Source of the DNA: a virus
Strand: one strand, 5' to 3'
Virus record (IMG/VR): IMGVR_UViG_3300005663_000108
Coordinates: 1 to 40,265 of that record
DNA length: 40,265 nucleotides
This document shows, in pieces, positions 630-39,303 of this stretch. Made by a program: the position numbers and the translations under genes. The notes beneath the pieces were generated by a model. It was not told the DNA's origin and ran no database searches. It saw only the letters and a list, made by a program, of their open reading frames with translations. Each line of letters starts with the position of its first letter. Positions within the stretch are counted from its first letter, which is position 1.

Positions 630-800
630 TCAACTATCAATTTTTTCCTGCAAGTTTGCTATTCTTAAATTCTTCCTATGCAACAACTCCTGATAACAAG
701 CATGAATTCTCGGTTTACTTGTGGCTACCGTCACCATTCTATATATTTCCTTCTCAGGAACGTTCCGAATTTCCGCTCTGTATCTTTGCTGGCGGGTCAA
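630..800 (-). CDS. Small hypothetical protein, 56 aa, TTG start
   Basis: The TTG at 800 overlaps the helicase stop (TTGA). AAGGAG lies 8 nt upstream, inside the end of the helicase gene, which argues strongly for this otherwise weak start. The product (begins MTRQQRYRAE, ends LQEKIDS) is basic, with no membrane segment and no recognised domain. Its position makes it the last gene of the leftward replication operon. An alternative downstream ATG (residue 22) has no ribosome binding site. Confidence 0.5.
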   Translation of the reverse strand: MTRQQRYRAEIRNVPEKEIYRMVTVATSKPRIHACYQELLHRKNLRIANLQEKIDS

Positions 801-1969
801 TACTCACACTCCTTAAATTCACAATACTTCATTCTACACTCAAGATTTATTGTTCCAACCTTGAGTCCAAACCGGTTCTTGGCATGGTAAAGCCGGATAT
901 CCGTCGTTTCCTCCCCCGGCAATAGCTCTCCGGTTGGAGGATTGAGGGAAATTACGTGGTCCACAAGTTGTACCTTCTCCAGGGACCCCTTCACGTGCCC
1001 CGTCCTTACCACGTCCCCCCCATACCCCATCCGATTAGCCTGGGTACTGACCCATAAGCGGGAAGAGGCACGTAGACCCCACGCCTTAATATCCAGAACC
1101 GTCTCCCCCTCCTCCTCCCACCGGCTCCCCCACCTTCGAGGGGCGCGTATGAGATCAAGCGAATCTAAGATTATTAAATCTACGAGACCCCCGTCCCTTT
1201 CCAACCGGCTTTCTAGTTCTGCTGGAGTTTGACTGTGGGGGGAAGTACAATGTATGTAAAGATTCCCCGCCTTCTTCCTATCAAAGGTTCTAACCCGGAA
1301 GGCCGAATCAAATTTGGAATTCATGGAATGAGCGGGCTGTTCCATGGAAACGAAAAAGGTATTGAACCCATGAATTATGGACTCCACCGCCACATTAATT
1401 AACCAACTCGTCTTACCCACATTCGTTTCACCAATAACGAGTGCTACTTCCCCGGGACAAATACCGCCCATGGCCCCGTCAAGGGTGGGAAGTCCGGTAT
1501 TGATGCCGATACCCCGTCCCTTCCCTACCTTTTTCCTTTTACTAAAGAAACTAAAGGATTCCCCATCCTCTCGTCCGATTTTAACGGGTTCCTTAAGGAG
1601 TTGTTGCGCTTCATCTATCTGCCCTTCTTCCAGCGCTAATTTAGCTTCTGTTATCCGGTTCCGAATTTCAGAAGCCTTACCAAACAAGCTTAAATTTTCC
1701 AAATCAAAGGTAAAAGAACCGTTAGTTTTAGCTATTTGGGCGCTAGGGGAAATGGCCCGCATTTGGGTTAAGGTAAGTACTTCCCCCTTCCTTCGCCATA
1801 GGGTTAGGGACTTTTTCACAATGGGGGCTAAATCCTCATCAAAACATTCTTCAATGATTGAATGAGACATGATAGACATAAATTTTTTATCTGCCATCTT
1901 ACCAACCAAATGTTCTTGGTAACCTCTAAGGAAGACGTTATCCATCGTCAACGTGTCCATCATTTTCAA
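797..1969 (-). CDS. DnaB-type replicative helicase (RecA-fold ATPase)
   Basis: Hexameric 5'-3' replicative helicase that would unwind phage DNA ahead of the family A polymerase. The C-terminal RecA-like domain is clear: GLPTLDGAMGG entry motif, Walker A GETNVGKTS (residues 180-188), a Walker B segment LIILDSLDLI near residue 270, a sensor-like STQANR, and a late GHVKGSLEK stretch. The N-terminal ~140 residues are helical and end in a basic linker (KRKKVGKG); no zinc-binding primase domain is present, so priming must come from elsewhere. The exact start is uncertain: the ATG at 1969 lacks a ribosome binding site, and an ATG at 1945 (MDNVFLRG) next to the upstream stop is an alternative. At 390 aa it is shorter than bacterial DnaB (about 470 aa). 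It is co-transcribed with the nucleotide kinase. Confidence 0.85.
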   Translation of the reverse strand: MKMMDTLTMDNVFLRGYQEHLVGKMADKKFMSIMSHSIIEECFDEDLAPIVKKSLTLWRRKGEVLTLTQMRAISPSAQIAKTNGSFTFDLENLSLFGKASEIRNRITEAKLALEEGQIDEAQQLLKEPVKIGREDGESFSFFSKRKKVGKGRGIGINTGLPTLDGAMGGICPGEVALVIGETNVGKTSWLINVAVESIIHGFNTFFVSMEQPAHSMNSKFDSAFRVRTFDRKKAGNLYIHCTSPHSQTPAELESRLERDGGLVDLIILDSLDLIRAPRRWGSRWEEEGETVLDIKAWGLRASSRLWVSTQANRMGYGGDVVRTGHVKGSLEKVQLVDHVISLNPPTGELLPGEETTDIRLYHAKNRFGLKVGTINLECRMKYCEFKECEY

Positions 1970-2519
1970 ACGTCGTCATAAAAACTCCCCCATTCACCAA
2001 TTTAGTTATAAGTTCTGGTCTTACCTGTTCCCAACTATCCGTTGCACGGGAAGCCAATCTGGTTTCATCTGCTCCCCTTTTGTTAAGTCTAACCTTACGT
2101 ATACTTTCCGTTGCATGAACGAAGACGACGAGATCCTTCATTTCTAAAGGATTGTGAAAGGAAGGTATGAAGTTTAATTGTCTCTCATTTCGGGGGGATG
2201 AATCAATAACTAAGGGACGATTAGCTTCCCTGCTTTGCCTTTCAATTGCATCATATACGAGTTCCGCAACGCGGTCATCGGTTTCTTCAGGAGCATGGGG
2301 GTTCTTCATCGACGAAAATTCCCTTACCCCTATCTCCTTCCTTAAGATTTCCCCTATCCGTAAAACCTGAAATCCTTCCACCTTTTCCAGATAATTAGCA
2401 ATGTGCGTCTTCCCGACTCCCGGTGCCCCCACCAACCACAACCGGATGAAGGGAGCCACATGCTTCGTTTCCCTCCAAGAAAAACTCATGGATTTTTCAC
2501 GCACTAGCGGTAGATTCAT
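1938..2519 (-). CDS. P-loop nucleoside monophosphate kinase-like protein
   Basis: 193 aa with Walker A GAPGVGKTH (residues 31-39) followed by FQVLRIGEILRKE, the arrangement of the adenylate kinase/NMP kinase group, where a phosphate-binding loop precedes the NMP-binding helices. A central LVIDSSPRN resembles the Walker B/NMP-binding strand of adenylate kinase (usual form DG(F/Y)PR), and LNKRGADETRLASRATD resembles an arginine-rich lid. It overlaps the upstream deoxyribosyltransferase-like gene by 23 nt and has AGGAAGGA upstream of ATG 2519. Being two genes after purZ, it may phosphorylate dZMP or another deoxynucleotide; substrate specificity cannot be read from sequence. A repair-type kinase (PNK-like) is the main alternative. 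Confidence 0.6.
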   Translation of the reverse strand: MNLPLVREKSMSFSWRETKHVAPFIRLWLVGAPGVGKTHIANYLEKVEGFQVLRIGEILRKEIGVREFSSMKNPHAPEETDDRVAELVYDAIERQSREANRPLVIDSSPRNERQLNFIPSFHNPLEMKDLVVFVHATESIRKVRLNKRGADETRLASRATDSWEQVRPELITKLVNGGVFMTTFENDGHVDDG

Positions 2520-2955
2520 TCAGTGCATTCCTTCCTATGTTTTCTATAAAATTTTGAATTTCCGTCATTTCATCTTCACCTATCTTTAGATCCCCGCTGA
2601 GGAAAAAGACCGGTAAATGAGCCATATCACGTAAGATTTTTTCAACCCCTTCGGAAGAGTTGCCCTCCGACTGATAAGCTATAATTCCGTGGCAGGTCTC
2701 AGCCATGGCTCTCTCTACCTTAAAAATGGCAATTCTATGGAGGGTATTCCATTCATCAAAAGTCGTTGGATTTATACAAGTATGGCTACCTATAAGCCTC
2801 ACGTGCATTTGATTTGCATAGAAACGAGAAGCTCTCATGTAATTTATTATCATTGTTGTCCAGTTACCAGCCATTTCCAGATTTTTCTCTTGAATTGAAG
2901 TAGACAGACTTCTAACTGGAGAAGCCAACAATAACCTAATTTCATCTACTCTCAT
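2497..2955 (-). CDS. Nucleoside 2-deoxyribosyltransferase-fold (NDT/DUF4406-like) protein
   Basis: 152 aa. The order of motifs fits the NDT superfamily: an N-terminal strand with LLLASPVRS, a mid region with LIGSHTCINPTTFDEW where family members carry an active-site Asp, and a late MAETCHGIIAYQSEGNSSEGVEK followed by LPVFFL. The SEGNSSEGVEK stretch corresponds to the S-G-x-x-x-E glutamate of DUF4406/DUF1937/NDT proteins. Members transfer or hydrolyse the base of (deoxy)nucleosides or nucleotides. The ATG overlaps the purZ stop (ATGA) and has GGGAGGTGAC upstream, so it is translationally coupled to purZ. A role in purine deoxynucleotide turnover is inferred from that coupling. The first in-frame ATG is 2955; the open frame extends slightly further upstream. 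Confidence 0.5.
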   Translation of the reverse strand: MRVDEIRLLLASPVRSLSTSIQEKNLEMAGNWTTMIINYMRASRFYANQMHVRLIGSHTCINPTTFDEWNTLHRIAIFKVERAMAETCHGIIAYQSEGNSSEGVEKILRDMAHLPVFFLSGDLKIGEDEMTEIQNFIENIGRNALNESTASA

Positions 2956-3944
2956 ACCGTCACCTCCCAAAAATCGTTGGGCCCCGGCCCATCCGAAGCT
3001 ATCACTTTAATCCCGGACCGGATGACGTTGGTTTCCAGCCAGTCTTCCCACAACCTCTTTTCCACGTAATCCATAAAATTTATGACCACCACGTCCGGCT
3101 TAATGATGTCCAAAGTCTCCTTATACATCTCTGCCGACCAGGTAAAGACCCGTCGTACACGATTGGTCACCGTGGTTATTTCGGATTTTACCCCTAAGTC
3201 CTCCCAATTAAGTTCCTTTTGATCGTCATATACCGCACCACTCCACCCACAAACCCCATCCTTTTCCCAATTCCCCACCCGGATGGGGTAGGTACGGTAT
3301 ACCCCTACCGTTTCATAAAGGTGGGAAGGGTGTACCCCCCCAAACCTATCTAAGACGGCGGGAACGTTAACGTTCCGACTCGTAGTATAGGGATAAAATT
3401 GTGAATCTATGGACAATCCATACCCCTGTGCAGATTCCCCCAAGACGTGAGCATCTGAATTTAGTAAAAGCTTCCACCTATGATGGTATAAGAAGGTAAA
3501 TTGACTAAGTACTTCGTCCTCTCCGGCTAGTACCGTTCCCCTTTCCCTTCGAATTTTGGAAGCCACGGCAGCTCCCACCCCCTGACCCGTGGAGCTAAGG
3601 TATACCAAATTCTCTTGCTCCCACTCCTTATGATGTGACTTTAAAATCATAGCATTAGGGTGGATGTACACTTCCGCGTCATGCTCCTGTATTTCCTCAC
3701 ATAAACGCACGGGGTCTATGACGGCCCCCGGTCCTATGAAGCAAGGCAATCGATGAAGGCAGGCAACAGGCAATTGCTTTAAGACTATTTTTCCCCGTAA
3801 GGGATGGTAAATGGTATGGCCGGCGTTGGGGCCAAAGTCACAAATTCCAGCCTCAAACTTTCTTTCCCCGTTAAGAAGGTAATCCGCTACCTTCCCCTTA
3901 CCCGTACTGCCGAACTGGCAATCTATTACCATGGTTAGCTTCAT
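2952..3944 (-). CDS. purZ: PurZ: N6-succino-2-amino-2'-deoxyadenylate synthase (Z-genome enzyme)
   Basis: PurA-family ligase expected to condense dGMP with aspartate, the first step to the 2-aminoadenine nucleotide dZTP. Seen: P-loop FGSTGKGK (residues 11-18), where PurA has WGDEGKGK, so the general-base Asp is Ser13 and the next Glu is Thr14; catalytic His in NAGHT (H43); STGQGVG (118-124) where PurA has TTGRGIGP; SAQGYGLSID, YPYTTSRNVN, GVYRTYPIRVGN, EITTVTNRVRR; and INFMDY (D292) at the nucleotide-base loop. At 330 aa it is much shorter than bacterial PurA (about 430) and matches the compact archaeal/phage form. The Asp-to-Ser change is the known signature separating PurZ from PurA. AAGGAAAA lies before ATG 3944. 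Gene order is SSB, purZ, NDT-like, kinase, helicase. Whether ATP/dATP or GTP is the donor is open. Confidence 0.9.
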   Translation of the reverse strand: MKLTMVIDCQFGSTGKGKVADYLLNGERKFEAGICDFGPNAGHTIYHPLRGKIVLKQLPVACLHRLPCFIGPGAVIDPVRLCEEIQEHDAEVYIHPNAMILKSHHKEWEQENLVYLSSTGQGVGAAVASKIRRERGTVLAGEDEVLSQFTFLYHHRWKLLLNSDAHVLGESAQGYGLSIDSQFYPYTTSRNVNVPAVLDRFGGVHPSHLYETVGVYRTYPIRVGNWEKDGVCGWSGAVYDDQKELNWEDLGVKSEITTVTNRVRRVFTWSAEMYKETLDIIKPDVVVINFMDYVEKRLWEDWLETNVIRSGIKVIASDGPGPNDFWEVTV

Positions 3945-3962
3945 ATCTTTTTTCCTTATTTT

Positions 3963-4053
3963 AAAAAACGGGGCTGACCGATATTTGCGGAGGGCCGCAT
4001 CGGCACCGGAGTAAACGGAAGTACCAACACATTTTACCCCATCGGCCAGCCCC
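3963..4053 (-). terminator. Structured terminator/attenuator upstream of purZ
   Basis: On the leftward transcript GGGGCTGGCCGAT (4053-4041) pairs at 12 of 13 positions with ATCGGTCAGCCCC (3982-3970) and is followed at once by GTTTTTT, the layout of an intrinsic terminator. The ~58-nt loop can form its own small hairpin (GCGG/CCGC arms). It lies just ahead of the purZ ribosome binding site, so it could attenuate purZ, thin out SSB-to-purZ readthrough, or be a processing site. No known riboswitch consensus was recognised. Confidence 0.55.
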
Positions 4054-4054
4054 T

Positions 4055-4073
4055 ACCGGGTAGCCCACCCGGT
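4055..4073 (-). other. Perfect hairpin at the SSB stop codon
   Basis: ACCGGGT and ACCCGGT (4055-4061 and 4067-4073) form a 7-bp stem with a 5-nt loop beginning at the TAA of the SSB gene. It adjoins the larger structure at 3963-4053, giving a two-hairpin intergenic element. It may protect the mRNA 3' end or help pausing. Confidence 0.5.
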
Positions 4074-4774
4074 TAAAAGGGTACCGTTACGTCATAGGCT
4101 TCCGCTACTTGCTCAGCGATAACCTTTAAATCTACACTTCCACGATTCGCCTCTTGTTCCTCAAAATTCGTCAACGAACCCTGAGGACTAACGGCGCTTC
4201 TCTTCGGGGAGGGAGTCACTCCATATGTCGTATTCAATCCCGTTCCCGATTTTTGAACGAGAAAATCTACCCCATTCTCCAAAGAGCAGGCATCTGGAAA
4301 CTCTTCCTCATCGAGGATGACGGCTACGAACCTGTCGTACACGGTCTTCGGCCCTCGGAAGATTTGTATCCTCTCTTCCTTATCAGCCTTATCGACGACG
4401 TTAAAGAGATACTGAATGCGGGGACGAAGATGGTCTATCAAGTCCTGATTGGCTTTGTCTAACGACGCCCTAAGTTGACACAACTTACAGTCATGTCCCC
4501 CACAGGAGACGCTACCCCGGATCTCAGGAGTTGGTTGCCAGTGCTGGACGGCCTTATAAAAAAGCTTGGCCCGCCCGTTACGTTCATACGGCAGAAGACG
4601 TAACTTCACCTTCCCGCTATCCGGCCACGTAAAGTAATTCCCACCTCCGGCGTCTCGCATGTCCTGTCTTAAATCGTCGGAGTCCAAATGTATCCCCCCT
4701 GCGGATTGTCGAACTGACTGTTTCTTCTTTGTGCTTTGTCTCTTTGGTTTAGCGTTACTTTTTGCCCTTGGCAT
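4073..4774 (-). CDS. gp32-like single-stranded DNA-binding protein
   Basis: 233 aa. A very basic N-terminal tail (residues 1-23, Lys/Arg/Ser-rich) is followed by an OB-fold-like region. GNYFTWPDSGKVKLRLLPY opens the core and FYKAVQHW precedes a zinc-knuckle-like CGGHDCKLC (C91, H94, C96, C99). Then come a helical DKANQDLIDHLRPR and the strands YLFNVVD and IQIFRGPKTVYDR. This pattern is that of T4 gp32-type and related phage SSBs, which coat single strands during replication and recombination. The gene starts inside the tail of the preceding membrane-peptide gene and is separated from purZ by a structured gap. The C-terminus ends in VTVPF instead of a strongly acidic tail. Confidence 0.75.
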   Translation of the reverse strand: MPRAKSNAKPKRQSTKKKQSVRQSAGGIHLDSDDLRQDMRDAGGGNYFTWPDSGKVKLRLLPYERNGRAKLFYKAVQHWQPTPEIRGSVSCGGHDCKLCQLRASLDKANQDLIDHLRPRIQYLFNVVDKADKEERIQIFRGPKTVYDRFVAVILDEEEFPDACSLENGVDFLVQKSGTGLNTTYGVTPSPKRSAVSPQGSLTNFEEQEANRGSVDLKVIAEQVAEAYDVTVPF

Positions 4775-5521: not shown

Positions 5522-7807
5522 TTACTTAGCAATACTCGTTCCTACCCTGAGGTCTATCGCCATGGGCACAAAGAACTCAAATCCCGGCATGGGATTCGTC
5601 ATGGCTTCCTTCATAAGTTCCGCCACCTTCTTCACCTCTTCCTTTGGTGAATCCACTACTATTTCATCATGTATTTGCAAAACTATTAACGCCTTCAGTC
5701 CTTCTTTCCTTAAAAGACGATACAAGCGAACTACTGCTGCATTGATAATGTCGGCCCCCCCCCCTTGAATGGGAAAATTCTTTGCCTGATTGGACGCTCT
5801 CCGCTGAGAATTTTGATTCCTTTCCTTAGATATGGGTAAATGACGTTTCCTTCCAAAGAGATTAGTTACATACCCCTTACGTCTTACATCCTGCCCCAAT
5901 TTAGTATGAAACATGGCTATTTGGGGATGGAGTCGGAACCATTCTCCTCGCCATTTTCTTGCTTTGGATTCAGAAAATCCATGTTCATAGGCAAGTCCTC
6001 TGGCGGAAATTCCTGAGGCGAGGCTGAGATTAAGTTGCTTACCATCTTGTCGACTTGATAACTCAAGTTCCTTAGTTGTGTGAGTATGTGGGTCCTGTCC
6101 TTCAAGGATAAGCTTTCGGAACATACGGTCCTTGGAATGTGCAGCACAAATTCGTAATTCAAATTGTTCATAGTCTGCCGCCACAAGTCTGCCTCCTGGG
6201 AATCGAGAAGTAAAACAACTTTTTTCAGCACCCTCCCGTCGGATATTTTGAAGGTTAGGGTTAGATGAGGATAATCTTCCAGTCGCGACGAATCCTTGAT
6301 TAAAAGTGGTGTGTATATAACCGTTTCCATCCGTTTTCTCCTCCAATGCTGACAGTATTCCATTCCTAATGGACGTTATTTCCCGAATTCGAATTATGGG
6401 AAGTAATGACTTTCTCCGTTTAGACAATCTCTCTATCGTTTCCTTGCTTGTACTTGGCTCCCCACCCTTAGTCATCTCTAATACAGGAAGCTTCATTTCT
6501 TCATATAATAACTTTCTTACCTGTTTTGGACTGGACCAGTTGATGTCCCCAAACTTCTTCCTTAAAAAATCGTTCCCCGTTTTGATTTCTTCGTCCATTT
6601 CTTGACATAATTTCTTAAGTTTCCCTCCATTTATCTTTACCCCCGCTTCCTCCATTTTCCATAGAACGAAAGATAAAGGATTAATCACATCCCCAAGTAA
6701 AGATTTTTCGCGATCGTCCAAAACCCCCTCCTGGTACTCGTACAAGAGATACGTATATGCCGTATCAAATCCATTATATGTGCCCACAACGTGTAGGGGT
6801 ACATCGGAAAAGTCACCGTAATCCGGTAAGGAACTCCAGTAGGGATAACCTCTGCAATACCGGAGTAATTGGTCTTCAAGTCGGTGACTCTCATTTTCAT
6901 CGACGAGTCCAGCCCTAAGAAATGTATCGTGATAGTCTGTAATTTTGATTGGTTTCGTCCAACTGAGTTCGAATTTCGCATTATGTACTATCCTCGGTCC
7001 CTTAACCCACCATCGTTTAAGATCTGATTGTTTGGGATTCTCCACCCAATAGGTCAACAATTTCTTCTCCTCCCTCCAAGTGAAGGAAGCCGTTAGTATT
7101 CTTCCCTTCCGGGGGTCTAGCGACGTCGTTTCCAAATCGTACGCCGTTAAAATCTTCGCCGTCTTCTCCAACAGTTCCTCTATCGGACGGACCCATTTTT
7201 TAACTTTTGGGACGTGTGGGTTGCATACGGAAACCGCCCTATCAAAGGATGCTTCAACCTGCGGGAGGAGTCGATGCATCTCAGCCGCTTCTGCAAGGCA
7301 CGGCGCATGCAGAACCCACACGTCCCGTCCGGGGGAGAAGTTTATAATGCCGACATCGTTTATTAATTTCTTCAAAGGACCCACTTTAAACAAATTCCAT
7401 GCCTCCTCCCCGCATAGGAGGAGAACCTTTGGACGTATCTTACTTAAGGTATATAGCAAACGATCGGGATTGGCTTTCCTCCCCTCCTCCTCCAATCCCA
7501 CGTGCCTTCCCTTCCTTTCCACTAAATCCCACCATATATTAAGTTTCTCTAAACTAGGCTGTAAAAGTAACTTCTCCAACAATACCCGCCCAGGGGTATC
7601 CCACTCCCACGCCCCCCATATGGCTAAATCACAGGGTCCAGTCCTTCTCCTTAAAATCTGACAGACATTTTCCTTCGATAATCTTTCGTACCCGTTTCCG
7701 TAATGTTTGACGCGTAATTCCGAGCGAGGCCGCTGTAGCAACGATTGCTCCCCTAGGGGTTCCCATTGCCCGCGCTGTATCTGCGAGATGCTGTAATGTG
7801 GTATCAT
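5522..7807 (-). CDS. Family A DNA polymerase with 3'-5' exonuclease (DpoZ candidate)
   Basis: Replicative polymerase, 761 aa. The exonuclease is present: Exo I YDLETT (D224, E226), Exo II HNAKFE (E280 where Asp is usual), Exo III YNGFD (Y344, D348). Polymerase motif A is ADYEQFELR (D545; usual DYSQIELR). Motif B keeps R586, K590 and N593 but reads NLSLASG where NFGxxYG is usual. Motif C is IHDE (D714, E715). Residues ~50-190 (GAWEWDTPGR, PKVLLLCGEEAWNLF, VLHAPCL) look like a worn uracil-DNA-glycosylase fold, as in some phage PolA fusions. No 5'-3' exonuclease. Sharing a genome with purZ makes it a DpoZ candidate, the PolA group co-occurring with PurZ. The start is doubtful: ATG 7807 lies 179 nt inside the preceding gene, while AAGGAGAAGG near 7650 has no usual start codon in frame after it. 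Confidence 0.9.
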   Translation of the reverse strand: MIPHYSISQIQRGQWEPLGEQSLLQRPRSELRVKHYGNGYERLSKENVCQILRRRTGPCDLAIWGAWEWDTPGRVLLEKLLLQPSLEKLNIWWDLVERKGRHVGLEEEGRKANPDRLLYTLSKIRPKVLLLCGEEAWNLFKVGPLKKLINDVGIINFSPGRDVWVLHAPCLAEAAEMHRLLPQVEASFDRAVSVCNPHVPKVKKWVRPIEELLEKTAKILTAYDLETTSLDPRKGRILTASFTWREEKKLLTYWVENPKQSDLKRWWVKGPRIVHNAKFELSWTKPIKITDYHDTFLRAGLVDENESHRLEDQLLRYCRGYPYWSSLPDYGDFSDVPLHVVGTYNGFDTAYTYLLYEYQEGVLDDREKSLLGDVINPLSFVLWKMEEAGVKINGGKLKKLCQEMDEEIKTGNDFLRKKFGDINWSSPKQVRKLLYEEMKLPVLEMTKGGEPSTSKETIERLSKRRKSLLPIIRIREITSIRNGILSALEEKTDGNGYIHTTFNQGFVATGRLSSSNPNLQNIRREGAEKSCFTSRFPGGRLVAADYEQFELRICAAHSKDRMFRKLILEGQDPHTHTTKELELSSRQDGKQLNLSLASGISARGLAYEHGFSESKARKWRGEWFRLHPQIAMFHTKLGQDVRRKGYVTNLFGRKRHLPISKERNQNSQRRASNQAKNFPIQGGGADIINAAVVRLYRLLRKEGLKALIVLQIHDEIVVDSPKEEVKKVAELMKEAMTNPMPGFEFFVPMAIDLRVGTSIAK

Positions 7808-9378: not shown

Positions 9379-9771
9379 TTACATTAGTCTGCTAATTTGT
9401 TCTATGATGTAAAGACGGGGTGCTACAAGGGCTTTACATAAATTCGGTACAGCGTCTTTACTACATACGACTAGCCCTATTACAGAGAAAAAACAACCAA
9501 ACACTCCAGAGATAATACAAGCAATTCCTTTCGGTGTGGGATCGGTTTGCCAGACATCCTTACTAGTTCCAAAACGGTAAGATAAAGATATCATAATAGA
9601 AGGAACAATAAGGAAGAACGCAAGTTGTAATAAGTTGTTCAGTATCCCATATCTCACAATCTCCTGCGCTAACAACGGAGCCTGTTCTACAGTAAAGCTC
9701 TCCGTTGCTTCTGCCCAATCCAATACCTTTTGCCCAACCGAATTTACCAATTCCTGCGTTTTTTCATCCAT
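9379..9771 (-). CDS. Two-span membrane protein, 130 aa
   Basis: A soluble N-terminal helix (residues 1-40) is followed by membrane segment 1 (about 45-65, LLQLAFFLIVPSIMISL), a polar loop with TSKDVWQTDPTPKG, and membrane segment 2 (about 82-103, IACIISGVFGCFFSVIGLVV). The C-terminal APRLYIIEQISRL resembles the APKLYLIE ending of phage membrane proteins of unknown role. Two spans would suit a holin, but it lies amid nucleases with no endolysin beside it, so lysis is not assigned. It overlaps the SLOG gene upstream by 8 nt. Confidence 0.6.
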   Translation of the reverse strand: MDEKTQELVNSVGQKVLDWAEATESFTVEQAPLLAQEIVRYGILNNLLQLAFFLIVPSIMISLSYRFGTSKDVWQTDPTPKGIACIISGVFGCFFSVIGLVVCSKDAVPNLCKALVAPRLYIIEQISRLM

Positions 9772-10132
9772 TATTCATCTCCTCAGTAACTTCAATTATT
9801 GGAATCTTTTTCTTCTTAGCAATCTTAACCATATGTGCAGTCCCCTTACCCCCAGGGAAAGCAATAACCAAATCAGGACGACCCTCAAGCAGCATAGCGA
9901 AATTACGTATAAAACCTGCCCCTTTACCATATTTATCCCAATCGGCATGATAAGAAGTAACCGATATACCTCTCTCTAAAGCCCATTGCCTCGCCAACTT
10001 GTCTGCACCCTTAGCTCCCCCCTGTATAAGGTGTGAAATTAGATATTGATTAAGAACATGATGTAAAAATTTTTTATTATCAAAATTCCTCCCCCCACAT
10101 ACAAGCACCTTTCCGATGAGAGTTGCCATCAT
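9764..10132 (-). CDS. SLOG-fold protein, YspA/DUF2493 family
   Basis: 122 aa. The whole family pattern is visible: VLVCGGRNF near the N-terminus, LIQGGAKGADKLARQWA, ADWDKYGKGAGFIRN, and LVIAFPGGKGTAHM. This Rossmann-like SLOG domain binds nucleotides or nucleotide-derived ligands; the family is widespread in phages with no settled function. ATG ATG at 10132/10129 overlaps the stop of the zinc-ribbon gene, with GGAGG upstream. In a phage remodelling its purine pool a nucleotide-sensing or nucleotide-processing role is conceivable but unproven. Confidence 0.75.
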   Translation of the reverse strand: MMATLIGKVLVCGGRNFDNKKFLHHVLNQYLISHLIQGGAKGADKLARQWALERGISVTSYHADWDKYGKGAGFIRNFAMLLEGRPDLVIAFPGGKGTAHMVKIAKKKKIPIIEVTEEMNNG

Positions 10133-29223: not shown

Positions 29224-32200
29224 ATGCCCGAAAAACGATTATTCAACATTGACCCACTGTTGGAAGGGGTAGAAGAGGAGGAAAGTATTCCCCTTATTCC
29301 GACGAATACCATTGCACCACCGCTACAAGTGCTTGAACCTGAGGAACAACCGCCCATTCCTTCGGTGGGTCAACGTATACAGGGTAGGCAGAGGGAAACT
29401 TTTCGCCAGTCACTCTTATCCACTTCCATCATTCCCGTTGACGATCCTAATTTCGAGGTATCTCAACAAACCGGTTTCTCTATGGAAGCCTTAAAGGACA
29501 ATCCGGAAGCGGCGGAGAGGATTAAACAGTCTCTTGACATTACGGATGAGGAGATCGATGATTTACACCGGTTGGCCCCCTTATTCGTTGAACGGTTTCT
29601 TTCCGATCCCAATTTTGCGGCTGCAACCCGCGATGAAATAGAACACGTTTCCGCCTTTGAGCAAAATTTGGAAGATTTGAAAGATTATTTAGGAGACATT
29701 GGGGTTGCTGCTGGTTTAGGAGTAGATAATTATAAGCAGGCTTGGGATGGAGCGGTATGGATGTCCCAGGTTTTAGCTGGGGGGGAGATATCTCCAGAGA
29801 GGATGCAGGAAATTCTTGACCGGGAGGAAGTAATACGCCGTAAGGATGAGGAAATTGAGGAGAGGGGATTTATAACCGGCATTCCCTTGGCGGTAGCTGA
29901 ACAGGGGGTTAATCTCGTCACTAGCGTTCTTGCCATGTTTGCCGGTAGGGCGGTTGGCCGGGGAGTAGGAGCGGGAATTGGTGCTTTGGGGGCTACCCCC
30001 GTTACCGTGGCCGGGGTGAGCGCTACGGGTTCCGCCATTGGCGAAAGGGGGATGCTCTTCCTACACGCAGCTATGCTTGAGGGGGGGCACGCCATGGTAG
30101 ATTACGCTACCATGACGGATGAAGACGGGAATTCCATTACTCCTGAGGATGCTGCCGCCTTTGCTTTGATGACGGGAGGGTTGGCAGGAATGGTGGAGGC
30201 AGCTACCTTCCCCATCGTAGCTAAGGTTCTTCCAGGTGGTCGTACCTTCCTGCTTAGGGAGGCACAGAGGACCGCCGTTCGTAAACTCCTTGCTAATAAG
30301 ACTTCCCGCGAGTTGGTTTTGAGGGCATTTAGGGATTTGGGGGTGGCTGCCAGCGTTGAAGCTATTCAAGAGGGTCTTCAAGAGTTTATTCAAATCTTTA
30401 CGGGGGAATTGGGTAAGTATTCTTCCCCGGACGCCTTTGAGGGACAAGGGCTTGATGACATTTTAAGAAAATTTATCTTTACGGACGAGGAAGGGAATTT
30501 TAAAGCTTTAGCCCAAATATGGCAGGCCATGAGGACGGGTGTCCAGGTAGGATTGGGGGCGGGTGGTCCCGCTACCACGGTACGGGTGGTTAAGGCTGTG
30601 AAGACCGATGGACGGGGACCGTCCATTGAAAGTGCTTTGCCGGATGAGCCAACGATTACACCAATTGATGAGACGGTCGATCCAAACACGGGCCGTCCTC
30701 TAGGTGAGGAGGAATTTATAAATGTCGAGATCGAAGAAGGAGAGGAAGCGGCGGAGGGAGTTGCGAGAGAGGTCGAAGTTCCGATCTCCGAAAGTCCTGA
30801 AGACACTGCCGACGCCCAAATCCTCATGCAGGGAGTTGAAGAATCCAACGCCATCGAAAGGGAGCAAAGATTCTTCGACTACATTGGTGAGTTCGCAAAG
30901 GGGGCTAAATCAATTAAGCGTACCCCCCAAGAAATGGCTGAATACGTTGAGGAAACGGCTGAAGAATTTTTGGGTAACCAATCATTAAGATTTATACGGG
31001 TTGATGCCCAAACCTTATCCAAACATATAAATGAAAATCCGGATGCCTTAGACGATTTTAGGAAGGTCCTTCCGGATTTGGAGGTACGAGTCAACCAGGC
31101 GCTGAGGGTGGATGGTGACGTTCTCTTTCCCCTTGGGGAATACGTCGTTTACGTTGGGGGAACGGATAGTCATGGAAAGCTCAAGGAACATCTTAAGCTC
31201 CGAGCGGGAGCTACCACCGCGTTTGAAGCGGCCTTTCATGAAGATAATCTTAAGGAAGAAGCCGCCCGCCTCATGGAGAATCAGGTTTTAACCCAGCAGG
31301 ACCGGGAGGATTTTGAGAGAATTCACGCGGACTTAACCGAAAAATACCGGGCAGAACTGGAGGAAACGGGGAGGGTGGGTAGTAGCCAAGTTATTATCGA
31401 CCAGGCGGGTCTTGCAGCCCGTGCCGTCATTAACCTTTCCATAGCGTCTGGCAAACCCCTTGAGGAGGTGGCCCCCCCTGGGGTATTTGCTGGCCGGAGG
31501 GAGGGGAGGCGTGCCTTCATTGAGATCGAAGGGGGGGAGAGGCCCGTTGGGGGGATTGTTACCCAACCTAGACCTCTTGGTCGGTCTTTTGCAGACCGTG
31601 AAATATTTTTAAATTCTCTTGCTGTTGCAGTGGGAGGGGGGGAACTCGTCCCTATACATAAGGCTTTTTCTAGTGAACTAATTTCTGCTTTAAAAAATTC
31701 GACATTATTTGAATCTTTAAAGCAGGATCTTCCTTCTCTTCCCTCTGAATTAGGTGAAATTACTGATGAAAGGCTTAGAGAAACAATCCAAGAAGTACTT
31801 AAGGAGCAAATGGAAAGAGGAGCAGAGGTAGAAACTAGATTTAGTAAGAAAGTTAAATTTTTAGGTGAGCATACTGATTTAGAATTTGATGTGGACAGTA
31901 TTGCTCCTAGGATGACTGAGGAAGAGGCGAAGGATCTTGGTGGTCGTGCTAGACCTCTTACTCCTGGTAGCTTTCCTTCTTCACCGGAAGCTATTAGTGG
32001 GAAACCTGATATATTAGATCAGCCCGATATGTCTCGTAGGGGATTTCTTAAAATTCTTGGAGCAGCAACGGCAGCGATATCTGTTGGACCGGTAACGGTT
32101 AGTAAGGAAATTATTTCTCTTAAAGCTAAGGAGGTTATTGGAATAACCGGTTCTGCCATGCGAAACAGTCATTTTTGGCGTAAGTTAGTTTTTGAACAAG

Positions 32201-35200
32201 GTACTTTTGCTTTAGAGATGTTAAAAGACTTTAATTTTGACGTTGACGTTGCAGAAACTTTTGAGGAAATAAAAGAGGAAAAAGAAGGATTAAAGACGTT
32301 AGCAGAAACTTTAATTAATACGGGGGATATTGAGCCAGAACTATGGAAGACGGGAGACGGGTCGGAGATCGGATGGAATTCACAGGAGCAAGCTTTTGAT
32401 ACCTTCGATTCAGGGGGGAAATTTATTGGACAATTTGAAAACGCTCAGGATGCCTTTCGTTCCGTAGGTGCGGAGGCACCCTCAAATGTGTTGAAGGAAT
32501 TAGAGGAAGAAGTTAAGCCACCTTCAGAAAAAATTGAGATTAAAGAATTACCGGTTACTACTCGTAGGGGCTTTTTACCTCAACTTTCAAAGATTTTTTC
32601 TAAGGAATTGGTTGATGTTCTAGGTAATCCTAAATTATTGGGTAATTTAGTTAAGGAGCTTTCGAAGATTGGGGTAGATTCTACTGAAGAACAAGTGGAG
32701 GAAACTGCTACCCTCTTTTTGGAAGAAGAATTCTTAGAAGAGCAGATAGAGGGGGAAGGGGGGGTTATACGGCAGCCTGAGATGAATCGTCGTACTTTCC
32801 TTAAATCTCTAGGGATTATAGCTGGATCGATAGCCGTTGTAGGCAAAGAGGTAACGAAAGCCGTTACTCCATCTTTAACTGATTTGGAATTAATTCAATT
32901 AAGTCCCGAGGAAATTCCTAACTTTGGAAGAATGACCCAAGCTGAAGGATTTATTGATACTTTTGCGGGGATGGATGAAATTCCTAAAGAAATTAAAATT
33001 AAGGTTGCGGGTAGCGTAAAGAAGTTTAATGAGAGATTCGAAGAAGATGAATTTGATGAATTGTTTGAGGAATTCTATGAGGAACATCCAATCGAAGGAT
33101 TTACGGTTGAAGGATCAGAAGAGGATAGTCTTGTAATTATTAAAGAACCCATTACAAAGAAATTCTTTTTTCAAGTAGGGGAAGAACCTCCCGGATTGTC
33201 TAGAGATGATGCTGATATGCTTCGACAGGTTAGTTTTGAGGATGCCCCTACAACTTTAGAAAGGGTTGTAGATTTACTTAGAGACGTGAATCCCACTCTT
33301 TTTGAGAAAGTAATTTCGGAGGTTGATAATAAAACTTCCTCAGTAAAACAACTTAATAATAATGCCTCTAAGTTACAACGTGATATTAATATATTAGATG
33401 ATGAAATTCGATCGGCTAAATTTGAAGATGAAAAGAAGAGGTTAATTAAACAAAAACAGTCTATAATGAAACGCAGAGATAGTATATTAGATGCACTAGA
33501 TACTCTTAGGGCTCCTCCAAAAGAAATAGGTTTTAAATCTGCTACTCCTCAAATTCAATTACCTAAAATTTTTTCTCAAGAACTTTTAAACGTCGTGTCT
33601 TCTCCGGAGCTTCTTTCTAAACTTACAGATGAAGTAATTGCTTTAGGTGAGAAGGTTACTAGTGAGCAGATAGAGGGGGCTTCCCGTCTTCTTCTTGAGC
33701 AACAATTGCCGGAAGGGGCCGAACCTGAAGGTGGAATTGAAGTATTGGACCAATTAGAACCGGTTCAGGTTCCTACCTTTTATTCTGCCGTCCTTCGTGC
33801 CGTGGAGTTATCCTCCCTCCCTAAAGGGACCCCTGAACAGTGGATGGGTATCATTCGAAAGGCCCCCAACGTTAAGAAGGAAGAATTGGAATTCGTAGAT
33901 GTAGAGGGATTTCTTGGGGGGAGGGAGAGCGTTACCCGTGGGGAACTCCAGGAATTCATTAGTAAGCATAACGTGAAGATTGAAACAGTTAATTCCGTCG
34001 AAAGAGGAGAGTTTGATAGAGAGCATTTTGTTCTTAATGAGATTGATTTTTCTATAAGTAATAATCTTAGAGTGGAAATTCGTGATAGATTTGAAGTTAT
34101 TTGGGAAAGGGATCATCCGGATAAAATATTGTCCGCTGATGTAATAAGGGAAAGAAATGAATGGGTTGAAGAGCGAATAACCGAAAATCCTCCTCGTGTA
34201 TGGTCTACTAATTTGGGGTTTGAGATACAGTTTTCTCCTTTAGGTTCAGAGGAGTATAGTATTTCTGGTCCAGATGCGGGATATATAGCTTCCTATACTA
34301 CTTTTGAAGATGCTGAGGAAGCAATTTTTGAAATAGAACGAGGTGGGGGATTTGCTGAACAGACCGTGGATGGGGGTACGAATTACGTTGAACGTCTCCT
34401 GAAATGGTCTAACGCTCCTGAGGGGGTCATCTATAATGAAGAACATTTCGCCGGACATGAAAACGTAATAGGATATTTCCGGGGCAAAACTCGTCAATTC
34501 GATGACGTTTCAGCCTTCATTATAGATGAAATGCAGAGTGGGTGGCATCAACAGGGGCGGGATAAAGGGTATATAACTCTACCCCAACCGGAGGTAATCA
34601 AGCGAAAAAGGGAACTCAATAGGGAGGCTGCAATATTAAGAAAGAATCTTGCAGATAGAATTGGGGAAGTCATAACTTCTTTAGATATCTATAATTTAAA
34701 TCTTCTTGATTTTGTGTTAAATCTTAAACAATACGCTGTAGCTAACGGATTTGAGGTTTCTATTAAGGAAAGACTTGATCCTTCAGATTTTGCGCTTCGA
34801 TTTACGGGGCCTGATTCTATCTCTTGGATGGAATTTATTACAGCTTCTTCGGACTTCAGTGATAAAGATTCTAATTCCAGGCGAGAAGCAATAACATCAC
34901 ATCTTGTACGAAGTAGTGATGCAGAATATCTTAGCTTAATAAAAAAGTTGAATAAGAATCGTTCTGATGTTATTTTTTCAGGAATCTCAAATGTTCCCTT
35001 TAAAAACAACTGGCATGAGCTTCTTCTTAAGCAAGCCATTCGTGATGTGGTGGAGGGGGGGCATGACGCAATTGGATGGTCTCCGTCAAGAATAATTTAT
35101 AAAAGGTATGGAGGTGCTAATTTTAGTTCAATTTCTAAAATTGAATGGGAACGAGACGATGAATCTCAAACGGTTAGATTGGTTGGGCAACCTAGTCATC

Positions 35201-38200
35201 ATAATTTACCTCCCATGGAATTTACTAATATTCCAATTAAAGAGATGGAAGAGTTTATAGGAGCAAGGGGAGTTGCTTCTGATGCTTTAATTCAAGAAAT
35301 TACGGAAGGAAAGAAGGTTAGTGGAATTCTTACTAAAAAGGATGAAAGCAGCGCACTAGGCTTTCTTTTGGCTAAACCTTTTATACACAATCTGTACGAC
35401 AAAAAAGCCGTTCAATACATGCGTAAGATTGGCAAGAAGCACGGGGTTACGGTAGAAAAGCGTGTGGATGATGATGGAAACGAGTGGTGGTTTATGCCCA
35501 TCCCAGACTCTCTTAAGGACGTAGTTCTACGTAAGGGACAGCCACTTTTTCAGGAAGAGGACGGCTCTACTTCCGGGGAAAGTCGGGGATTTTTCTCTCC
35601 TGATGAAAACGTTATTGGACTTACGAGTAAAGCGAATTTTTCAACCTTTATGCATGAAATGGCTCACTGGTATCTTCACACTCTTAACCGTCTATCCCAA
35701 GACCCAGGAGTTCCCGATGTTGTAAGACAAGACCTAGAAGTAGCTTTCCGATGGATGGGGATTACCTCTTTTGATGAGGTTACTCGCGAACATCATGAGA
35801 TGTACGCCGATGGATTTCTTAAGTTTCTACAGGAGGGGTCTTCTCCCACCCTTGAACGTAGGATGCAGGCGGTATTTCACCGTTTCCGTAGGTGGTTATC
35901 CTCCATTTATAAGGAAGGGCAATTGCCGGAACTTAATGATGAAATCCGGGGACATTTTGACCGCATGCTGGCTACGGACGAGGAAATTGCCCAGGCCCGT
36001 GCATCTTCGGGATTCCAACCCGCTTTTGCTTCTGCTAGGGAGATGGGGGTAACGGAACAGGAATTTAATGATTATCTAGATAATGCTGACATGATGGCGT
36101 CAGAAGCGAAACGGCGATTAGATGGGGATGAGCTTCGTAGACAAAAAGGAAAGAAAACTAAGGGATATCGTAACCGTTTTGCCGTTGAAAAACGGCGAAT
36201 TGTAGAAGGAATGAAGAAGCTTCCCGTCCATCAGGCTAAGCAATTCCTCATGCATGGAACTTTGCCTGATGGAAATAAATCCTCCGGAATTCATAAGTTA
36301 GATCATAATAAGGTAATAGAGTTATTTAAGGACAATAAAGATTTAATTAGATTTCCCGGTGGTCCGCATACCATTACCGTCCGGGATGGAACGGGACTTG
36401 ACCCTGAATGGGCCGCTCAGCTTTTCGGATTTGCAGGAGGATTTGAGCTACTTAAAGCGGTATTTGCCCACACCAATGAGAAGGTAAATGTGGAAGCCAC
36501 AAAGATGGCCGGGCTTAATCTTGAGAAAAAGGGGAACATAGCCCCTGAGGTTGATGATAAAACTACTCGCGCTAACGAAGCTGTTCAAAATCATCATCTA
36601 GAAAACGTTCTTCTAGCCGAATTGGAAGCGGCTGAAAGGAAAACTGGAAAGAGGACCATTCCCGTTCGCCGTTTAAAGATTTTTGCTGAGGGGTTCATTA
36701 ACGATACCCCCGTGGGGAAGATTCGTCCCGAAGAACATCTTCGGGAGGGGAGAAAACAGGCCAACCTAGGAATTTCCGCTGCTAGGCGGGGAGATATGGA
36801 AGCCCTAGCGGAAGCTCGCCGCCGTCAGCTTATGTCTCTTTACCTCTACCGTGCCGCTAGGGACAAAACTAAACGTTTGTCTAAAATGGTTACGGATTTA
36901 AAGAGGATAAATAAATCTAACTCCCGTAAGGCCATCGGCGTTGAAGCTATGGAACAGATCGACGACATCATGTTTCGTTTTACCCTGACTCAACGCCGTC
37001 CTCAGGTGACGGCTAAAACTCAAACCCTTGATGAATACTTGGATACGGTATACCCCGTACGGGTAGACCCAGCGGATATAGAGGGACAGGTACATTATAA
37101 ATCTCTTCCCTTTGGTAAATTCGAGGCCTTATACGAATCCATTATGTCGTTGGCTCACGTTGGACGTGACCAGCAAAAGATATTGAAGGAAGGTGAAAAG
37201 ATTGAGCAGGCCCTCTTTGCAGCGGAGCTTAAGGATGTTTTAGAAGAGAATATTCCAGTTTCAGAAGGAAAGATAGAGTTAGACGATCCCTTCTTAAAAC
37301 CTGTGTCCGATACCATACTATCCCTTCATGCCTTAATACGCCGGATGTCCCATTTGGCTAAAGTAATGGACGGATTCAAGGCCAACGGTTTTGTCTTTAG
37401 GAATTACATACTTCCTGCCGCTAAGGGGAGTGATGATTATTTTTCCCGTATGCGGGACATTACGGATAAGGTTGCTAAGTTATATGAGAGGTATGAAGGT
37501 CGTGACCTTAGACGGAAGATCCCCATTAAGAATGAAGAATTTTCCCTTCGTAAAGAGAAGATGTTGGCCATCGTTCTTAACATGGGTAATGAGGAGAACC
37601 TTGATCGTCTTTTGGAAATGGAACAGTACCATAACCACATTAGTGCAAAATCCCTTGAGAACATAAAGAATTCCCTTGAGAAGAAAGACATGGATTTTAT
37701 TCAAGGAATATGGGACCTCATGGAGTTCCAATGGGATGACGTGGTTGCCTTGGAGAGGCGAACGACGGGGAGGACCCCTAAGAGAGTGCAACCGACTGCC
37801 ATAGTAACTCTTTGGGGTACTTACCGTGGTGGGTATTATCCCATCGTTTATGACCCCCGGAAGGTATCGAAGGAGGAAAAGAGAAAGGCTCGCCGTAATC
37901 TTACCGCTGAAGAATTTCTTAAACAAAGACAAGGATACGCTTTCGCCATGACTAGCCGGGGGCATACCCTCCCCCGCAAATCGTCTGCCGGTCAAATTCT
38001 TAATCTAGACATGGCCTCCGTCATCAGTAGGCATTTTGACGACGTTATTCTTGATATTACTCATCGTGAAATCATCATGAATTTTAATAAGATGATGCAG
38101 AACAATGAAATTTCCGGTACTATGCAGAAGCACCTAGGGAATGCAGCGTATCGATCAACCTTTGTTAATTGGGTTGATCGTATGGCGCAATCGGACGACA

Positions 38201-39303
38201 TTCAGAGAGATGCATTTCAAAAGATGGTAGGGCGTTTTAGACGGGGTATAGCTGCCGCCACTATGGGATTCAAATGGACCACCATTATTCAACAACCCGT
38301 AGGGATAACCCAATCCGTTGTTACCATCGGCCCCACTGCAATTTGGAACGGTATGGGGCAGATTTATCGAGCCATTGAACAGGATCCCGTCACCATGTCG
38401 GGAATTCGTCAACTTCTCAAGGACGTTACGGAACTTTCCCCCTTCATGAATAATCGCACCCACCGGGTAAACCGGGAAATTGATGAGCTATTCCGTAACC
38501 GTACTAAATTTCAAACTCCCTCTAAGATCGTTAATAGAACTCTCTCCTGGGTGGAAGTTAATATGTTTATGCCGTTGGCTAAACTTCAATACGTGGTTGA
38601 CTTAATCACTTGGCTTGGTGAATTTAATAAACATCAAATCGCGGGGGAAGACGTAGAAACGTCAAAAGCTTTAGCCGATAGAGCCGTTAAGGAATCTCAA
38701 AGTAGTGGAGCGAGAGTTGATTTATCCGCCTTTGAAACGGGACCGGAAACGGTGAAGATATTTAGTACCTTTGCCAATTTCTTTGGTTCTACCTACAATC
38801 TTACTGCTGACTCCATAACGAGAGCCAAATTATCTGAAGATAAATTTGCCTTCGCCCATCTTTTAGGAGATTTCCTTCTTCTTTACACCTTACCTGCCGT
38901 ACTGGTCGAAGCTATCCTTCTGCGGGGTATCGGTGAACCCGATGAGCCGGAAGAATGGGCCGCATGGGCGGCTAAGGCCCAATTTCGTTATATGGCCGGG
39001 ACGATACCCGTCTTAAGGGATATTTCTGGATATCTTGAGTATGAGGATTCCGCCCCCGCCGGATTGGCTACGAAGGAAATTGCGCAATTCGGCCAAGAGG
39101 CGTACGAGGCTATAGCAGGATTAACACGTGGGGATTTATCTGAATTTGATATGACCCTTCTTAAAAAGTCCCTAATGGTTGAATCCATTGTGGGATTTAG
39201 ATTCCCCGCAGCGCAGATTAATACGACGATTAATCAGGCAGAGAAGATGATGGATGGTGAAATTAAAAATCCTTACCTTCTCTTATTGAGAACTGAGGAA
39301 TAA
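29224..39303 (+). CDS. Giant polyvalent ejection-type protein with zincin domain, 3359 aa
   Basis: Position of T7 gp16, but a composite large polyvalent protein. Seen: hydrophobic Gly/Ala-rich segments near 215-280 and 305-340; three FS-x-EL modules (about 806-862, 1121-1172, 1447-1499); twin-Arg motifs SRRGFLK (937-943), NRRTFLK (1188-1194) and RRGFLP (1114-1119); the polyvalent block with PEQWMGIIRKAPNVKKEELE (~1516-1590) and FIIDEMQSGWHQQGRDKGY (to ~1783); zinc-peptidase HEMAH (2144-2148) with later EHHEMYADGF; and an LPD38-like C-terminus with membrane-like VLVEAILL near 3230. The HExxH part follows ENVIGLTSKANFSTFMHEMA, as in other phage polyvalent proteins. Likely ejected into the host to open the envelope and act on host targets. 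Residues ~800-2050 are encoded by notably A+T-rich DNA. Confidence 0.8.
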   Translation: MPEKRLFNIDPLLEGVEEEESIPLIPTNTIAPPLQVLEPEEQPPIPSVGQRIQGRQRETFRQSLLSTSIIPVDDPNFEVSQQTGFSMEALKDNPEAAERIKQSLDITDEEIDDLHRLAPLFVERFLSDPNFAAATRDEIEHVSAFEQNLEDLKDYLGDIGVAAGLGVDNYKQAWDGAVWMSQVLAGGEISPERMQEILDREEVIRRKDEEIEERGFITGIPLAVAEQGVNLVTSVLAMFAGRAVGRGVGAGIGALGATPVTVAGVSATGSAIGERGMLFLHAAMLEGGHAMVDYATMTDEDGNSITPEDAAAFALMTGGLAGMVEAATFPIVAKVLPGGRTFLLREAQRTAVRKLLANKTSRELVLRAFRDLGVAASVEAIQEGLQEFIQIFTGELGKYSSPDAFEGQGLDDILRKFIFTDEEGNFKALAQIWQAMRTGVQVGLGAGGPATTVRVVKAVKTDGRGPSIESALPDEPTITPIDETVDPNTGRPLGEEEFINVEIEEGEEAAEGVAREVEVPISESPEDTADAQILMQGVEESNAIEREQRFFDYIGEFAKGAKSIKRTPQEMAEYVEETAEEFLGNQSLRFIRVDAQTLSKHINENPDALDDFRKVLPDLEVRVNQALRVDGDVLFPLGEYVVYVGGTDSHGKLKEHLKLRAGATTAFEAAFHEDNLKEEAARLMENQVLTQQDREDFERIHADLTEKYRAELEETGRVGSSQVIIDQAGLAARAVINLSIASGKPLEEVAPPGVFAGRREGRRAFIEIEGGERPVGGIVTQPRPLGRSFADREIFLNSLAVAVGGGELVPIHKAFSSELISALKNSTLFESLKQDLPSLPSELGEITDERLRETIQEVLKEQMERGAEVETRFSKKVKFLGEHTDLEFDVDSIAPRMTEEEAKDLGGRARPLTPGSFPSSPEAISGKPDILDQPDMSRRGFLKILGAATAAISVGPVTVSKEIISLKAKEVIGITGSAMRNSHFWRKLVFEQGTFALEMLKDFNFDVDVAETFEEIKEEKEGLKTLAETLINTGDIEPELWKTGDGSEIGWNSQEQAFDTFDSGGKFIGQFENAQDAFRSVGAEAPSNVLKELEEEVKPPSEKIEIKELPVTTRRGFLPQLSKIFSKELVDVLGNPKLLGNLVKELSKIGVDSTEEQVEETATLFLEEEFLEEQIEGEGGVIRQPEMNRRTFLKSLGIIAGSIAVVGKEVTKAVTPSLTDLELIQLSPEEIPNFGRMTQAEGFIDTFAGMDEIPKEIKIKVAGSVKKFNERFEEDEFDELFEEFYEEHPIEGFTVEGSEEDSLVIIKEPITKKFFFQVGEEPPGLSRDDADMLRQVSFEDAPTTLERVVDLLRDVNPTLFEKVISEVDNKTSSVKQLNNNASKLQRDINILDDEIRSAKFEDEKKRLIKQKQSIMKRRDSILDALDTLRAPPKEIGFKSATPQIQLPKIFSQELLNVVSSPELLSKLTDEVIALGEKVTSEQIEGASRLLLEQQLPEGAEPEGGIEVLDQLEPVQVPTFYSAVLRAVELSSLPKGTPEQWMGIIRKAPNVKKEELEFVDVEGFLGGRESVTRGELQEFISKHNVKIETVNSVERGEFDREHFVLNEIDFSISNNLRVEIRDRFEVIWERDHPDKILSADVIRERNEWVEERITENPPRVWSTNLGFEIQFSPLGSEEYSISGPDAGYIASYTTFEDAEEAIFEIERGGGFAEQTVDGGTNYVERLLKWSNAPEGVIYNEEHFAGHENVIGYFRGKTRQFDDVSAFIIDEMQSGWHQQGRDKGYITLPQPEVIKRKRELNREAAILRKNLADRIGEVITSLDIYNLNLLDFVLNLKQYAVANGFEVSIKERLDPSDFALRFTGPDSISWMEFITASSDFSDKDSNSRREAITSHLVRSSDAEYLSLIKKLNKNRSDVIFSGISNVPFKNNWHELLLKQAIRDVVEGGHDAIGWSPSRIIYKRYGGANFSSISKIEWERDDESQTVRLVGQPSHHNLPPMEFTNIPIKEMEEFIGARGVASDALIQEITEGKKVSGILTKKDESSALGFLLAKPFIHNLYDKKAVQYMRKIGKKHGVTVEKRVDDDGNEWWFMPIPDSLKDVVLRKGQPLFQEEDGSTSGESRGFFSPDENVIGLTSKANFSTFMHEMAHWYLHTLNRLSQDPGVPDVVRQDLEVAFRWMGITSFDEVTREHHEMYADGFLKFLQEGSSPTLERRMQAVFHRFRRWLSSIYKEGQLPELNDEIRGHFDRMLATDEEIAQARASSGFQPAFASAREMGVTEQEFNDYLDNADMMASEAKRRLDGDELRRQKGKKTKGYRNRFAVEKRRIVEGMKKLPVHQAKQFLMHGTLPDGNKSSGIHKLDHNKVIELFKDNKDLIRFPGGPHTITVRDGTGLDPEWAAQLFGFAGGFELLKAVFAHTNEKVNVEATKMAGLNLEKKGNIAPEVDDKTTRANEAVQNHHLENVLLAELEAAERKTGKRTIPVRRLKIFAEGFINDTPVGKIRPEEHLREGRKQANLGISAARRGDMEALAEARRRQLMSLYLYRAARDKTKRLSKMVTDLKRINKSNSRKAIGVEAMEQIDDIMFRFTLTQRRPQVTAKTQTLDEYLDTVYPVRVDPADIEGQVHYKSLPFGKFEALYESIMSLAHVGRDQQKILKEGEKIEQALFAAELKDVLEENIPVSEGKIELDDPFLKPVSDTILSLHALIRRMSHLAKVMDGFKANGFVFRNYILPAAKGSDDYFSRMRDITDKVAKLYERYEGRDLRRKIPIKNEEFSLRKEKMLAIVLNMGNEENLDRLLEMEQYHNHISAKSLENIKNSLEKKDMDFIQGIWDLMEFQWDDVVALERRTTGRTPKRVQPTAIVTLWGTYRGGYYPIVYDPRKVSKEEKRKARRNLTAEEFLKQRQGYAFAMTSRGHTLPRKSSAGQILNLDMASVISRHFDDVILDITHREIIMNFNKMMQNNEISGTMQKHLGNAAYRSTFVNWVDRMAQSDDIQRDAFQKMVGRFRRGIAAATMGFKWTTIIQQPVGITQSVVTIGPTAIWNGMGQIYRAIEQDPVTMSGIRQLLKDVTELSPFMNNRTHRVNREIDELFRNRTKFQTPSKIVNRTLSWVEVNMFMPLAKLQYVVDLITWLGEFNKHQIAGEDVETSKALADRAVKESQSSGARVDLSAFETGPETVKIFSTFANFFGSTYNLTADSITRAKLSEDKFAFAHLLGDFLLLYTLPAVLVEAILLRGIGEPDEPEEWAAWAAKAQFRYMAGTIPVLRDISGYLEYEDSAPAGLATKEIAQFGQEAYEAIAGLTRGDLSEFDMTLLKKSLMVESIVGFRFPAAQINTTINQAEKMMDGEIKNPYLLLLRTEE

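Follow-up and report, generated by a model that had tools for sequence, protein, structure and literature searches.

A gene of the PurA superfamily, situated among the replication genes of an uncultured phage, raises the question of whether this phage builds its genome from 2-aminoadenine (Z). The window analysed is the 40,265-base virus record IMGVR_UViG_3300005663_000108, a metagenomic contig; reading frames continue past both of its ends, and genes may therefore be missing. Its early half lies on the minus strand and comprises, in order of transcription, a sigma-like gene, a PolA-family DNA polymerase gene, two small genes, a gp32-like single-strand DNA binding protein (SSB) gene, the purZ gene, a 152-aa gene, an adenylate-kinase-like gene and the gene of a DnaB-like replicative helicase (797–1969, minus strand; PHROG 19, 4e-40). 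A placement of purZ among replication genes is also found in other Z phages; here, the contig extends only 2.95 kb downstream of the gene. The early region also encodes a YspA/cpYpsA-related SLOG-family protein, possibly a nucleotide-ligand protein (9764–10132, minus strand; PF10686, 2.8e-17). The plus-strand half comprises the terminase, portal, capsid, tail tube and internal virion proteins and the start of a tail fibre, and a 3,359-aa protein of the virion region (29224–39303, plus strand) has weak Pfam matches only (LPD22 and an internal TAT-like stretch).

The first-pass annotation held that a short-tailed virion sets this phage apart from the phiVC8 model, which proved wrong, as phiVC8 is itself a podovirus. 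Podoviruses with PurZ include phiVC8, ZP6 and vB_OspP_OH. The portal protein matches those of ZP6 (4e-40) and phiVC8 (1e-24), and the tail-tube proteins match both phages as well (tube A against phiVC8, 6e-14); because of this homology, the virion type is not distinctive.

Identity of the purZ product

The purZ gene (2952–3944, minus strand) starts with ATG, is preceded by a purine-rich AAGGA and encodes a protein of 330 residues, annotated here as a 2-amino-2′-deoxyadenylosuccinate (dSMP) synthetase. The translation, which reads MKLTMVIDCQFGSTGKGK...GPNAGHT, agrees with the earlier description of a PurA-superfamily protein in which Ser13 occupies the position of the PurA aspartate (WGDEGKG) and His43 is kept. 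The match is far beyond chance. PF00709 scores 99 bits (cut-off 27), PHROG 1211 (2-amino adenylosuccinate synthetase) matches with 3e-61, and a phmmer search of the PDB retrieves the PurZ of phiVC8 (2e-44) and S-2L (1e-43), PurZ0 (1e-18) and an archaeal PurA (4e-18). Position 13 is Ser in 92 of 92 PurZ and PurZ0 rows of the comparison set and Asp in all five PurA rows; since some archaeal homologues also have Ser or Gly at this position (PMC12884076), Ser13 by itself is no proof of PurZ. Among NCBIfam models, that of PurZ is the best of all (226 bits), ahead of the best PurA model (133 bits). The score lies below the curated cut-off of the PurZ model NF038379 (300 bits), which is an annotation threshold rather than a biochemical feature.

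In a tree of 59 sequences, the protein falls inside the phage PurZ clade (support 100/99), in a subset with phiVC8 and S-2L (98/84) and apart from PurZ0 (100/97) and PurA, although its branch is long (1.38). The phylogeny that had been proposed as a check thus groups it with phage PurZ and not with genuine PurA. The ligand pocket was compared at 30 positions drawn from the published S-2L structure (PMC8342488), and 25 of them agree, including Ser13, Asn40, Arg133, Gln173, Arg222, Val223 and the TTVT loop Thr257–Thr260; the position of Val223 serves to exclude the 2′-OH (PMC8342488). Two positions of the dGMP pocket differ from S-2L, and Asp292 is present where the S-2L enzyme has the ATP-binding Gln308. 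The AlphaFold model (pLDDT 91) has the PurA-superfamily fold and matches both PurZ and PurA structures, with the PurZ structures of phiVC8 and S-2L as the top Foldseek matches (TM 0.88–0.90).

The protein resembles the PurZ of phiVC8 (PDB entries 6FM1 and 6FKO) and S-2L (7ODX) in fold, in the replacement of Asp by Ser, in the dGMP pocket, in the Val that excludes the 2′-OH and in the Asp loop, at about 35% identity. It differs from them in its long separate branch and shorter C-terminus, and neither DatZ nor MazZ follows this purZ within the contig. As the tree and the pocket outweigh the sub-cut-off NF038379 score, we class the protein as a divergent PurZ. The assignment to PurZ rather than PurA, based on sequence, pocket residues, tree and predicted structure, upholds the identity first given to the gene.

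Single-protein queries of viral contigs with PurZ, PolA, the 152-aa protein and the terminase each gave no match or one weak match. Relatives of PurZ were retrieved by an alignment query, and an alignment query for PolA was unsuccessful.

The DNA polymerase and its O-helix

The PolA-family polymerase (5522–7807, minus strand; PF00476, 1.3e-82) has a 3′–5′ exonuclease domain and an N-terminal extension. Its motif B, or O-helix, reads RQDGKQLNLSLASG, placing Leu at the position of Escherichia coli F762 and Ser at that of Y766. Of 69 purZ-linked polymerases, among them the present one, 68 have lost the Tyr766 equivalent (Phe 39, Thr 26, Ser 2, Met 1 and Tyr 1). A control set of 16, made up of E. 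coli Pol I plus 15 sequences taken from phage records, has Tyr in 15 cases and Leu in one. In larger control sets, Tyr is found in all 79 readable T7-like sequences, Cobavirus-like polymerases have Leu 53 times and Tyr 23 times, and siphoviral polymerases have Tyr 79 times and Phe once, the siphoviral set being biased because one search pattern contained the Tyr.

The idea that loss of Tyr766 marks Z phages without exception was considered and discarded, given the Leu of Cobavirus-like phages in which no purZ is visible, the Phe of one siphoviral contig and the Tyr of one purZ contig (L045). The Cobavirus-like group with Leu and no purZ seen includes L119/L127 (Roseobacter phage CRP-4) and relatives. 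The change from Tyr to Phe has been reported as the one mutation common to both clades of the Z-phage polymerase DpoZ (PMC8599892), and the present data extend this substitution to Thr and Ser. The Y766S variant of E. coli Pol I has a more open active site and reduced fidelity (PMC3121766).

This polymerase resembles DpoZ-1 and DpoZ-2 in the loss of the Tyr766 equivalent and has Leu at F762, as does the DpoZ of phiVC8. Unlike them, it has Ser instead of Phe at Y766, lacks an insertion in helix O and lies far under the cut-offs of the NCBIfam DpoZ models (106.9 bits for a cut-off of 500, and 16.1 bits for one of 350), being better matched by Pol I models. In a tree built with the O-helix columns removed, it forms one branch (94/97) with its counterpart from L093, the genome nearest in gene order, close to T5-like and SPO1-like polymerases. 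The best tree sets this branch apart from both DpoZ-1 and DpoZ-2, which suggests a third origin of a DpoZ-type polymerase; we word this as a suggestion because forced grouping with either DpoZ-2 (AU p 0.17) or DpoZ-1 (AU p 0.066) is not rejected. A proven third origin is not established by these values, nor by a sign test, which lacked power.

Genes and RNA leader around purZ

The SSB gene (4073–4774, minus strand; PF08804, 1.9e-12; L093 homologue, 6e-7) immediately precedes purZ, an arrangement shared with L093. The 128-nt gap between the two genes contains a 93-nt element (3962–4054, minus strand) composed of a 13-bp stem enclosing an inner hairpin, followed by GUUUUUU. Its predicted fold has an energy of −45.2 kcal/mol (z = −4.7; none of 200 shuffles as good), and for two further gaps in this run of genes the predicted folding does not exceed chance. 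Possible roles of the element are those of a terminator, an attenuator or a ligand-sensing leader of purZ. A search of Rfam gave no family match and there were no relatives for covariation, so that a riboswitch was not retained as an assignment.

The 152-aa gene (2497–2955, minus strand) is preceded by a GGGAGG ribosome site, and its start codon overlaps the stop codon of purZ (ATGA); because of this arrangement it is very likely real and coupled to purZ. Its product has no match in the PDB, Pfam, PHROGs, NCBIfam or phages. By eye it resembles enzymes of the NDT/DNPH1 fold (LxASPVR ... NPxxFDEWNTLH ... ERAMAETCHGIIAYQSEGNSSEGVE) and shares several DmtZ/DNPH1-like blocks, a resemblance below significance. 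A test against the DmtZ/NDT superfamily gave no significant match, the Tyr and Asn of the Tyr-Asn/Asp-Glu triad are not evident, and the AlphaFold model is unusable (pLDDT 47).

The next gene (1938–2519, minus strand) encodes an adenylate-kinase-like P-loop NMP kinase of 193 residues (AAA_17, 1.5e-14; TIGR01351 adk, 3.5e-9) with the motifs GAPGVGKT, IGEILR and DSSPRNERQ, the latter two of which we take to be the NMP-binding arginine motifs of adenylate kinases. In the comparison locus L009, the gene directly after purZ encodes a kinase of this type. NMP-kinase-like P-loop genes also lie beside or overlap purZ in L017 (9349–9939 and 7878–8567) and L042 (5565–6158 and 4163–4792). The protein is a candidate dZMP kinase that may belong to the Z pathway; T7 also encodes a nucleotide kinase, and has no Z DNA.

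These two genes might form an alternative pool-editing module, which would add to the Z-DNA reading rather than compete with it. The 152-aa protein would be DmtZ-like, hydrolysing dAMP and transferring the deoxyribose phosphate to the Z base, and the kinase would act on dZMP, a combination that we regard as rather unlikely. The module would fit the overlaps of these genes with purZ or with one another within a single operon, the good ribosome site, the purZ-adjacent kinase-like genes of L009 and L017/L042, and the DmtZ/DNPH1-like blocks; the sub-significant DmtZ comparison, the catalytic Tyr and Asn that are not evident, the low-confidence model and the kinase of T7 argue against it.

Profile searches found none of DatZ, MazZ, MazZ-2 and DutZ in the contig, which is open at both ends and covers 2.95 kb downstream of purZ. 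Among viral contigs in which 3 kb or more of DNA follows purZ, 62 of 66 also encode DatZ and/or MazZ. The purZ–mazZ–datZ cluster of phiVC8, ZP6, OH, BUCT555 and Bm1 likewise has purZ near a DNA polymerase and other replication genes, in phiVC8 and ZP6 within podoviruses whose portal and tail tube are homologous to those described here, but the 152-aa gene and the NMP kinase gene occupy the mazZ and datZ places in this phage. In Arthrobacter and Gordonia phages, the PurZ0/DmtZ/DutZ set (PMC12884076) does without DatZ and MazZ, neither of which is seen in the present contig; this phage differs in having PurZ rather than PurZ0, no DutZ in the contig and no demonstrable DmtZ homologue.

L093 (JAJDAO010000104.1) is a 47-kb contig from a Deltaproteobacteria metagenome-assembled genome. 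It has the same order of PolA, NIGNYES protein, gp32 SSB and purZ, and a DnaB homologue lies farther along; its PurZ is 42% identical and its PolA has Thr at Tyr766. The NIGNYES protein, named after its motif, has 97 residues in this phage (4892–5185, minus strand) and a counterpart in the same place in L093 (phmmer E 0.005 among 9,835 ORFs). The whole 47 kb of L093 is without DatZ and DutZ and has weak MazG-like ORFs only. In contrast to this phage, its PolA is fused to a UDG domain, purZ is followed at a short distance by an RNR gene, and the kinase and the 152-aa gene were not found. The viral contigs L045, L062 and L048/L049 (83–146 kb) also encode PurZ (QFGSTGKG), with no DatZ or MazZ within the available DNA; they perhaps represent another way of using Z, and the L045 PolA keeps Tyr766.

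Probable 2-aminoadenine in the phage genome

The tree, the pocket residues and the predicted structure all mark the protein as a PurZ, from which a Z genome would most probably follow, and on sequence and modelled structure this phage is likely to have one. The fuller reading, that of a podovirus-like phage making 2-aminoadenine DNA by means of PurZ, the kinase and a PolA without Tyr766, is probable. It starts from what is seen in the contig, namely PurZ family membership, pocket residues, gene order and the polymerase substitution. By homology to characterised enzymes, PurZ would join aspartate and dGMP, with ATP, to give dSMP, which host adenylosuccinate lyase (PurB) would convert to dZMP. 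An NMP kinase, either the adenylate-kinase-like phage protein or that of the host, would raise dZMP toward dZTP, completed by host NDK, and the phage PolA, with its O-helix Tyr replaced by Ser, would insert Z opposite T and may prefer it. Replacement of A by Z may be complete and may protect the DNA from restriction.

Several observations count against a Z genome: the long PurZ branch, the sub-cut-off score, Asp292 and the two differences in the dGMP pocket, together with DatZ, MazZ and DutZ not being in the contig, a PolA below the DpoZ models and avoidance of GATC. The GATC sites number 88 against 154 expected, and avoidance is stronger in phiVC8 (3 against 135), although its DNA is known to carry Z, and in T7 (6 against 141). 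Avoidance of palindromes was tried as a signature of Z. Six-base palindromes containing A or T have an observed-to-expected ratio of 0.91, which resembles Z phages; this was rejected as evidence because non-Z siphoviruses look alike, and the test of restriction-site avoidance had no power.

PurZ could instead be active with Z replacing A only partly, or could mainly deplete or poison host pools, as might be reasoned for a phage without a dATPase and a dedicated DpoZ; we consider this quite improbable. DatZ, MazZ and DutZ are missing from the contig, DatZ and MazZ are missing from all 47 kb of L093 save for its MazG-like ORFs, and the Pol I models outscore the DpoZ models on PolA, all of which would suit partial replacement. 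Weighing against it, both ends of the contig are open and little of it lies downstream of purZ, PolA has the Tyr766 loss typical of Z-phage polymerases, and E. coli expressing the S-2L Z-cluster without DpoZ already had much Z in its DNA (PMC8342488). That the enzyme is PurA-like and acts on IMP, supplying adenine nucleotides during infection, is highly improbable, for its PF00709 membership, long branch and pocket differences are set against Ser13, Val223, a nested position in the PurZ clade and PurZ models and structures that outscore every PurA.

Beyond the preferred reading of a Z genome made through PurZ, the locus could represent a third, independently evolved Z-DNA system, an unlikely though conceivable idea. 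Such a system would pair PurZ with a Pol I-type polymerase opened through the loss of its O-helix Tyr, with Ser at that position here and Thr in L093. Instead of DatZ and MazZ it would use a dZMP kinase encoded by the phage together with a new type of nucleotide-editing enzyme, perhaps under the control of the structured purZ leader.

The PurZ/Z-DNA strategy is already known, and it is in its polymerase and accessory genes that this phage differs from the Z phages studied so far. It adds a deep lineage to the phages assigned to Z DNA, with an accessory set unlike both the purZ–mazZ–datZ and the PurZ0–DutZ–DmtZ sets. The question of what makes a Pol I prefer Z becomes easier to test, as the O-helix Tyr has given way to Phe, Thr, Ser or Met in nearly all purZ-linked polymerases and most phage Pol I controls keep it.
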